Source: Gammaproteobacteria bacterium
GTDB lineage: Bacteria > Pseudomonadota > Gammaproteobacteria > Pseudomonadales > Pseudohongiellaceae
Assembly (NCBI GenBank): GCA_017853205.1
Contig: JAFMKB010000008.1
Coordinates: 1-62,187 of the forward strand
Length of the DNA stretch: 62,187 nt
Direction of reading: 5' to 3'
Shown here one piece after another: positions 56,204 to 57,892 of the stretch; the first letter of the stretch is position 1, and each line of letters starts with the position of its first letter. The notes under the pieces were generated by a model. The model saw only the letters and a list, made by a program, of their open reading frames with translations. It was not told the origin of the DNA and did no database searches. The translations under genes and the position numbers were made by a program.

Positions 56204-56340
56204 AATTGTTCTCTGTGAGCTCAGTTTGAGTAGGTAGGTTGAGTGTATAAAAACCAAAACTAGATCTTGAAGTCTACACTAATCTCTCTAAAATCGATTT
56301 CCCGTTTTATTTTTTGCCTAAAAGGATCGGAAAGCAGCAA

Positions 56341-57420
56341 GTGACACGCGCTCGCAATCAACAGGTATCACTCGAGGATACGCCTTATTATCACTGCATT
56401 TCGCGGTGTGTTCGGCGTGCCTTTCTGTGTGGTGACGATCCTCTGACTGGCCAGAATTTTGACCATCGAAAAGGGTGGCTGGTCCAGCGAATGAAGTGGC
56501 TTGCGAGCCAATTCGCCATCGATGTCTGCGCCTATGCTGTGATGAGTAACCATTACCACTTGGTACTAGGTGTCGATGTGAACAAAGCTCGATCATGGAG
56601 CGACGACGAGGTGTTAGCTCGTTGGACCAAATTGTTCCCACGTAATGCGAAACTAATCGAAACTCTGCGCCTCAACTCGAGCAGCAAGAAAGCAAGGGAT
56701 CTCGAGGCCAAGACGTTGGCTGAGTGGCGGCAGCGCCTACAGGACATAAGCTGGTTTATGCGCTGTCTTAACGAGCGCATAGCGCGGGCTGCTAATCGAG
56801 AGGACAATTGTACCGGCCGATTTTGGGAGGGCCGATTCAAGAGTCAGGCGCTGCTGGACGAGAAAGCGTTGGTGACGTGTATGGCCTATGTCGACCTCAA
56901 TCCGATTAGAGCCGGCGTCAGTGACAGTCTCGAGGCAAGTGATTTTACGTCGATTCAAGAGCGCCTGATTCGCCAGGCGCAGCGCGTAAAAGAACCTAAT
57001 TATCGCCAGCAGCGATTGCTTAAACGCCGCAACGCACGCCATCTATTAAAGTCGAAGGTCCCCAAGCTACGCCCACTCTCCGAACCGGGGGATAAGGTGC
57101 AGGAGTCATTGCCGATTGATCGCGGGAGCTACGTTGCGTTGCTAGATGCGAGCGTGCGCGCACTGAAGGTTGAAAACGCGACTGGTGTGGAGCTGTTAAA
57201 CCCGCTAGGCAATCACTCGCTGCTTTCGCAGTTGGGCATGCAAGGTCGGGGCTGGCTTCAAGCGGTAACTAAATTCCACCGACACTATGCGCTCGCTGCA
57301 GGAAGCACCGATTCGCTTCTCAAGTATCAGGCGCGACGCGTCGAAGCTGGCGAGGCGATGCGATCTAAGACAAAGTGGGTTCGCGGAATGGCTGCGGCGA
57401 AGCTGCTGTACGAAACTTAA
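56341..57420 (+). CDS. REP-associated tyrosine transposase (Y1/HUH family)
   Basis: Y1 transposase-family protein of 359 residues, of the kind that acts on hairpin DNA. The HUH motif is H-Y-H in MSNHYHLVLG near residue 78. RFWEGRFKSQAL and CMAYVDLNPIRAG (Tyr nucleophile region) are further family marks. Its start is GTG 56341: it begins TRARNQQVSLEDTPYYHCISRCVRRAFLCG, the usual beginning, with GGAAAG upstream, while TTG 56314 would add nine residues. The C-terminal 150 residues are basic and of variable type. No terminal inverted repeats or target duplication were found, consistent with RAYTs that are single-copy domesticated-type genes. Two hairpins with identical loops lie 180 and 290 bp downstream. 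Confidence 0.9.
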   Translation: MTRARNQQVSLEDTPYYHCISRCVRRAFLCGDDPLTGQNFDHRKGWLVQRMKWLASQFAIDVCAYAVMSNHYHLVLGVDVNKARSWSDDEVLARWTKLFPRNAKLIETLRLNSSSKKARDLEAKTLAEWRQRLQDISWFMRCLNERIARAANREDNCTGRFWEGRFKSQALLDEKALVTCMAYVDLNPIRAGVSDSLEASDFTSIQERLIRQAQRVKEPNYRQQRLLKRRNARHLLKSKVPKLRPLSEPGDKVQESLPIDRGSYVALLDASVRALKVENATGVELLNPLGNHSLLSQLGMQGRGWLQAVTKFHRHYALAAGSTDSLLKYQARRVEAGEAMRSKTKWVRGMAAAKLLYET

Positions 57421-57600: not shown

Positions 57601-57642
57601 AACTAATTATTTAATTGGGTGTCCTTTAATTAAAAATTAGTT
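57601..57642. repeat. AT-rich hairpin A with loop GGGTGTCCTTT
   Basis: AACTAATTATTTAATT (57601-57616) pairs with AATTAAAAATTAGTT (57628-57642), one unpaired A, around the 11-base loop GGGTGTCCTTT (57617-57627). The 16 bases at 57613-57628 recur exactly at 57719-57734 in hairpin B. It resembles a REP-like target of the adjacent Y1 transposase, although the classical REP layout (5' GTAG and GC-rich stem) is different. Confidence 0.8.
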
Positions 57643-57712
57643 CCAATTTAGGTTGCAATTGATCTGATCGTCTCAATAACAATCGTGCGACACGCGGAGG
57701 AAAGTAAAATTT

Positions 57713-57743
57713 GTTATAAATTGGGTGTCCTTTATTTTATAAC
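57713..57743. repeat. AT-rich hairpin B with loop GGGTGTCCTTT
   Basis: GTTATAAA (57713-57720) pairs with TTTATAAC (57736-57743) around a loop that contains TTGGGTGTCCTTTAT. The stem sequence is unlike hairpin A but is also self-complementary, while the central 16 bases are identical. The two lie in the same orientation, 106 bp apart. Confidence 0.78.
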
Positions 57744-57863: not shown

Positions 57864-57892
57864 TTGACAGAAAGTGTGCAAAACTATATCTT
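57864..57892 (+). promoter_or_regulatory. Sigma70-type promoter of the small protein/CopC-like operon
   Basis: A perfect -35 TTGACA at 57864-57869 and TATCTT at 57887-57892 are separated by 17 bases. Transcription would begin near 57900, about 46 bases before the ATG at 57946, which excludes the earlier in-frame ATG at 57874. Confidence 0.65.

Follow-up and report, generated by a model that had tools for sequence, protein, structure and literature searches.

A gammaproteobacterial contig of the family Pseudohongiellaceae (JAFMKB010000008.1, assembly GCA_017853205.1), analysed here over a stretch of 62,187 nucleotides (the window), carries two copies of a short repeat behind a Y1 transposase gene, and the question that this locus raises is whether the transposase would recognise these repeats by their letters or by the hairpins in which they lie. 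The original prediction described 16 identical bases in two inverted repeats, behind such a gene, with a fixed loop and different stems. The identical bases (AATTGGGTGTCCTTTA) were confirmed at 57613-57628 and 57719-57734 of the + strand, and the reading frame at 56314-57420 does lie upstream of both copies. The core common to the two repeats was a 9-bp box, TGGGTGTCC. The features of the locus are as follows.

56314..57420, + strand: Y1/HUH transposase, subclass 2.3 (RAYT-like), 368 aa from a mechanical TTG start
57601..57642, no strand assigned: AT-rich inverted repeat around box 1 (the earlier hairpin 1); folds, unconserved, judged incidental
57616..57624, + strand: putative end box 1, TGGGTGTCC, about 195 bp past the transposase stop; a box is present here in 30/30 orthologs examined
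57713..57743, no strand assigned: AT-rich inverted repeat around box 2 (the earlier hairpin 2); folds, unconserved, judged incidental
57722..57730, + strand: putative end box 2, TGGGTGTCC, repeated in direct orientation 106 bp beyond box 1 and about 301 bp past the transposase stop
57864..57892, + strand: sigma-70-like promoter, TTGACA-17-TATCTT, downstream of the boxes and perhaps belonging to the next gene

The transposase motifs read from the ORF were HuH at N79-H82, W171-E172 and the catalytic Y192 within YVDLNP. Only the right side of the gene carried boxes in the window, the left-side box being absent, and the exact 11-mer GGGTGTCCTTT had no further occurrence in the genome. No tnpB was seen among the window ORFs on inspection by eye, without a profile. 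The promoter scan returned four promoter-like sites versus 2.4 expected. A block resembling the promoter at 57864..57892 was visible by eye in orthologs, and between 57864 and 58563 this promoter-like block is followed by a reading frame of 68 aa and then by a protein that weakly matches a CopC domain.

Outward-pointing boxes around related transposase genes

Of 274 genomes sampled across the Gammaproteobacteria, 41 contained a subclass 2.3 homolog, and the flanks of the best 80 of at least 590 confirmed loci were analysed. When no motif was supplied, the commonest 8-mer upstream of the genes was GACACCCA (29/80, compared with 0/80 in the opposite orientation) and the commonest downstream was TGGGTGTC (29/80 and 3/80, respectively). 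The pattern TGGNTGTCY was found upstream of 51 and downstream of 39 of the 80 genes, versus 1 and 4 on the wrong strand and 1 and 3 for the reversed pattern, and the orientation of the boxes was nearly always outward. In 46 of the 51 loci with an upstream box, the first such box preceded the protein match by 41-86 bp; in 34 of the 39 with a downstream box, the first one followed the stop at a distance of 165-238 bp. The suggested tie between the repeat and a Y1 transposase was thus borne out by the genes of relatives, which the box flanks. It is a linear element of 9 bp that points away from the gene, which it accompanies on one side or on both at a fairly constant distance.

The letters of the box varied within the family. 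In several loci lacking TGGNTGTCY, variants occupied the same positions: five Pseudoalteromonas genes were flanked by TG[CT]CTGTCC on either side, one locus (L090) by GGGGTGTCC and another (L129) by GGGATGTCC, likewise on either side, whereas three loci of Colwellia/Thalassomonas had GGGGTGTCC at the left end alone. The generalised pattern [TG]GNNTGTC[CT], widened after these variants had been seen, was found in fixed windows upstream in 59/79 loci, downstream in 45/73, on either side in 75/80 and on both sides in 29/80, with controls of 1 and 2 for the reversed pattern and 3 and 4 for the other strand. It was missing from these windows in five of the 80 loci, two of which had both flanks present. 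As the pattern had been widened post hoc, it was checked on eight fresh plasmid records (out of 13 matches), which have genera in common with the 80 loci. An outward box was present on at least one side in seven of the eight (upstream in five, downstream in four), the other strand giving 2 and 1 and the reversed pattern 1 and 0.

The box was specific to these genes among the Y1 groups compared. TGG[ACG]TGTC[CT] was found in 0/22 REP-type RAYT loci (8 of 30 being unusable) and in 0/20 loci of long, 2.1-like Y1 genes, the latter set having been chosen by length and motif. The 2.1-like loci (L173-L192) instead carried outward TGACCCC upstream in 10/20 and downstream in 12/20 (CTGACCC in 11 and 7, respectively). 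Read inward, this is GGGGTCA(G), which is compatible with the TIRYT motif GGGGWSAS of Di Nocera 2013 (PMC3733652); the set yields the published motif and thus serves as a positive control for the approach. Within the subclass 2.3 family, the letters of the box followed the enzyme. The upstream and downstream boxes of the same locus agreed in the middle letter in 17/24 cases (10.9 after shuffling, P 0.003) and in the last letter in 22/24 (13.2 after shuffling, P 0.0002), although these P values are too kind because the loci are related and shuffling overstates their independence. On the transposase tree (n=60; 8 of the 80 loci, lacking a clean ORF of 290-420 aa, were excluded), 11 changes sufficed for the middle letter (20.1 when shuffled, with a minimum of 16) and 7 for the last one (12.0 when shuffled, with a minimum of 9). 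The accompanying alignment, A1, comprised 44 rows drawn from the window and the 72 usable loci.

Element ends and dispersed copies

Homology between copies often broke off at a box. Three copies in Colwellia sp. TT2012 were 93-95% identical across about 1.26-1.32 kb, and the match outside them was confined to one 24-bp piece in one pair only. In 26 locus pairs of the family, chosen by hand, the left end of homology lay 17 to 0 bp outside the box in 18 of 22 pairs (35-263 bp inside in the other four), and the right end lay 0 to 23 bp past the box in 7 of 14 (29-614 bp short in the other seven), the distances being taken to the nearest box and therefore biased to small values where boxes form arrays. 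No box was found for 4 left and 12 right ends of these 26 pairs. Further homology outside the unit (24-506 nt) was seen in 8/26 pairs and none in 18/26. Among 22 copy pairs from the genus of the window (G391 and G392), the left end fell at -19 to +1 in 13/18, the remaining five lying 15-172 bp inside, and the right end fell at 0 to +10 in 9/22, with 13/22 not at a box. Three pairs of genus copies were 97-99% identical (L233/L234, L235/L236 and L240/L241), two of the three being less than 10 kb apart; the ends of L240/L241 were clean on both sides and those of L235/L236 on neither. As many as eight boxes were present on one side of a single genus copy. No empty site was found. Another dispersed repeat, roughly 30 bp long, was noticed at L240:1695-1728, with several occurrences in G391 and others in G370, G392, G021, G360 and G018.

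The dispersal of the box was assessed in 42 of the 84 genomes of the genus, sorted by transposase content before counting. In 11 of the 17 genomes with mobile-type copies, TGGGTGTCC was present in 77-282 copies, at least six times the reversed control (e.g., 275 vs 14 in G391 and 197 vs 6 in G021), the highest count being 282 in one genome versus 38 for the control. The remaining six of the 17 showed little or no excess (0.8-2.1x). None of the 25 genomes with the ortholog only or with no match reached 3x, the highest value being 2.7x in G011 (ortholog only), and in the genome of the window itself the box was not dispersed (6 vs 10 reversed). Class-wide, a ratio above 1.6 was reached by 10/29 carriers versus 0/15 non-carriers (P 0.051). 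In 800 kb of G391, 39 boxes were counted versus 2 reversed; 16 of the 39 lay inside ORFs of at least 150 aa, compared with 90% of random positions. Where boxes of this genome were neighbours within 150 bp, their arrangement was direct 17 times, divergent four times and convergent once, the direct ones being separated by gaps of 21-76 bp. Groups of ATGGGTGTCCTTTA-type boxes were also noted at L023 (G009) and L026 (G011), in genomes that yielded the ortholog alone.

Taken together, the box seems to delimit a family of mobile genes for which no end signal had previously been reported, and we consider it likely that TGGGTGTCC is the cognate end box of the subclass 2.3 Y1/HUH transposases. The enzyme would read the box by its letters and not via a hairpin, the boxes would serve the cutting and rejoining of single-stranded ends, as in the IS200/IS605 and REP transposases, and solo or arrayed boxes may come from the copying of ends.

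The window's lineage and the hairpin question

A match to the transposase was found in 66 of the 84 genomes of the genus, and 30 orthologs were examined, the best-scoring among those with loci returned. All 30 had a box 174-281 bp after the stop, and 27 had a second one, the spacing being 20-23 bp in 19 and exactly 22 bp in 15. In the window and its five nearest orthologs the two boxes were 106-157 bp apart. An upstream box was present in just one of the 30. In four orthologs (L224, L228, L230 and L231) the first box was inverted with the 22-bp distance kept, and the inversion required at least two changes on the tree; an inverted first box was also noticed in L031, L069 and L073. Comparison with the three closest relatives gave transposase dN/dS values of 0.10, 0.05 and 0.05. 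The gene is therefore under selection, and the upstream and downstream sequence that orthologs share puts it at one place, with its right-end boxes kept. The window copy looks like a settled, selected ortholog that has retained two right-end boxes. In its clade the gene is an ortholog on which purifying selection is strong; the left box is gone and a pair of right boxes remains, about 22 bp apart in most relatives. In the window, the pair is probably retained as a binding site of the settled transposase. Two side observations concern these loci. A third conserved block near CTAAGTATCAGAAAT was seen by eye tens of bp past the box pair in L010, L015, L017, L018, L021, L025 and L028, and none of this type was seen by eye in the window. 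In addition, the match was interrupted by one or two in-frame stops in the transposase orthologs L207, L210, L211, L214, L217 and L218, which may be decaying copies or have shortened ends.

Under the original prediction, the Y1 enzyme would bind a single-stranded hairpin at each site, its loop being constant and its stem varying with compensation. Both window sites do fold as single-strand DNA, as their self-complementary arms had indicated (57601-57642, -8.0 kcal/mol, z -2.9; 57713-57743, -2.8 kcal/mol, z -1.8). Selection for a compensated stem, however, was not confirmed in the clade of the window, where flank pairing stayed at the swapped-flank level: complementarity was 4.49 versus 4.56 +/- 0.20 for swapped flanks (P 0.65) in 37 copies, obtained by dropping flanks below 60% A+T and then reducing 44 copies by similarity. 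This reduction removed L020, a 95% relative whose genome was compared separately as L203. For the two window sites the scores were 6 and 8, values matched or surpassed by 22% and 3.9% of swapped pairs, respectively; the two scores are jointly unusual, yet each site was chosen post hoc. The three orthologs nearest to the window, with protein identities of 95, 95 and 89%, retained TGGGTGTCC unchanged at both places and had broken stems, the stem cells being paired in 70.6% versus 69.5% after shuffling and in 68.8% versus 67.3%, with no excess of double, compensatory changes. The conserved part is what had been called the loop, as foreseen, and it appears to be read by its letters.

Family-wide, the results were mixed. 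In 106 non-redundant copies (144 before similarity reduction), the best stem averaged 3.46 versus 3.04 +/- 0.11 and exceeded all 500 swaps, yet 85 of the 106 scored 4 or less. Upstream boxes had a fold z below -2 in 10/59 cases versus 1/57 control sites, downstream boxes folded no better than controls (3/46 vs 5/43), and clean stems were found in single copies from Shewanella (L083), Psychromonas (L098) and Thiotrichaceae (L104). Given the null result in the clade and the weak excess family-wide and upstream, the hairpin is at most a local feature of some clades; it may matter in certain of them, e.g., Shewanella, and the AT-rich hairpins around the two window boxes are judged incidental. The original prediction held that the family idea would fail if most copies lacked paired flanks: they do lack them, and the hairpin family falls on this point, but the family of boxes itself is real. 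The direct pairs at 22 bp also leave only 13 bp between the boxes. We regard the hairpin as an improbable basis of the family.

Alternative readings and comparison with known systems

Among the other readings, the boxes might be operators, bound by the transposase or another regulator for its own promoter or that of the next gene, and not cut. The upstream box lies near the gene start in most relatives having one, the window pair lies between the transposase and the next promoter-like site, the 22-bp spacing corresponds to two helical turns and is kept in direct and inverted form, and the C-terminal part of the transposase weakly matches several helix-turn-helix or homeodomain chains. Such a role would leave the boxes at element boundaries and the 77-282 copies in carriers unexplained, and it is compatible with an end function and not exclusive of it; as the sole explanation we find it possible but rather unlikely. 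The boxes could instead be those of some host protein or repeat family unconnected with the transposase and simply accumulate near these genes. This reading could draw on the boxes in the 800 kb of G391, which lie away from the listed transposase copies, and on the modest excess in G009 and G011, where the ortholog alone was found. The strand-specific and rather fixed positions, the letters that track the transposase tree and the lack of boxes around the other Y1 subclasses speak against it, as does the finding that 0/15 class genomes without a match and 0/25 genus genomes without mobile-type copies reached 3x the control; we hold this reading to be very improbable. Transcription terminators of the transposase gene would suit sites downstream of the gene with T-rich DNA after both boxes. 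The long stems, however, consist almost wholly of A-T, no terminator was listed at 57601-57743 by the scan, and relatives have boxes upstream of the gene too, so that we find a terminator role scarcely credible.

We thus return to the box as a probable end signal. A broader scenario, to which we lend about half of our credence, would have subclass 2.3 swap hairpin recognition for a short linear box. Its elements would end in [TG]GNNTGTC[CT] and seed large, non-palindromic families in direct arrays, and transposase and box would have been domesticated together, the pair about 22 bp apart being kept as a binding site at one chromosomal place throughout the genus. A concrete end sequence makes the function of subclass 2.3 genes testable, and the box links a repeat family with up to 282 counted copies per genome to its likely maker. 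The family further lends itself to studying how a HUH enzyme that reads hairpins might shift to a linear site and how a transposase turns into a settled chromosomal gene. A literature search returned no report of this box among the matches listed.

The closest of the known systems is TIRYT/TIRtron, a Y1 transposase with flanking inverted repeats, in which the TIR motif GGGGWSAS is common to only some TIRs (Di Nocera 2013, PMC3733652). The likeness extends to a class 2 Y1 transposase, two-sided inverted repeats, moderate dispersed numbers, dimers or groups and the lack of a GTAG hairpin; unlike those repeats, the box described here is [TG]GNNTGTC[CT] (inward GGACANCCA), with no GGGGWSAS. Compared with the flanking repeats of TIRYT, boxes were on both sides in 29/80 relatives and on either side in 75/80, and the window has the right side only. 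Of the C-terminal helix-turn-helix that is a TIRYT feature, the tail of the window protein gave weak matches only, several of which were helix-turn-helix or homeodomain chains. By subclass, 20 of 26 TIRYT examples were 2.1, the other six were 2.2 or 2.5, and none was 2.3 (Quentin 2018, PMC6006769).

In contrast to RAYT-REP systems (e.g., E. coli TnpAREP with GTAG REPs), there is no conserved stem in the window's clade and the boxes stand in direct arrays. A 5' GT[AG]G at the stem foot was absent from the two window sites, the only ones read, where the four bases before the stems were GACT and ATTT on the + strand and TTGG and ATGA on the - strand. REP-like dispersal is missing from the genome of the window (6 vs 10) and present in 11/17 related mobile-type genomes. 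The IS200/IS605 elements share the Y1 transposase, copies at differing sites and ends near the gene; they differ in that YVDLNP here replaces Y---Q, the subterminal hairpin is unconserved in the clade of the window and no tnpB was seen by eye.

The motifs of subclass 2.3 (NHYH, WE and YVDLNP; Table 1 of PMC6006769) were all found in the window ORF and in the A1 consensus, along with the insert after beta 3 and the long C-terminal part. The distance from H82 to Y192 is 110 residues, matching the HuH-Y distance of subclass 2.3; helices at 89-141 lie between a strand at 80-87 and a helix at 145-163 (beta 3 and alpha C being assigned by eye), and the tail spans residues about 200-368. Several divergent copies per genome and the presence of Alteromonadales among the hosts also agree with that survey (PMC6006769). 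The survey found no REP-like sequence near the subclass 2.3 genes (Quentin 2018, PMC6006769); unlike the subclass as surveyed there, the genes described here are accompanied by putative end boxes, which some genomes also contain in many dispersed copies. Y1 genes flanked by inverted repeats are already known from TIRYT, and the present family is filed with the RAYT/TIRYT kind, the end box of subclass 2.3 being its new side.
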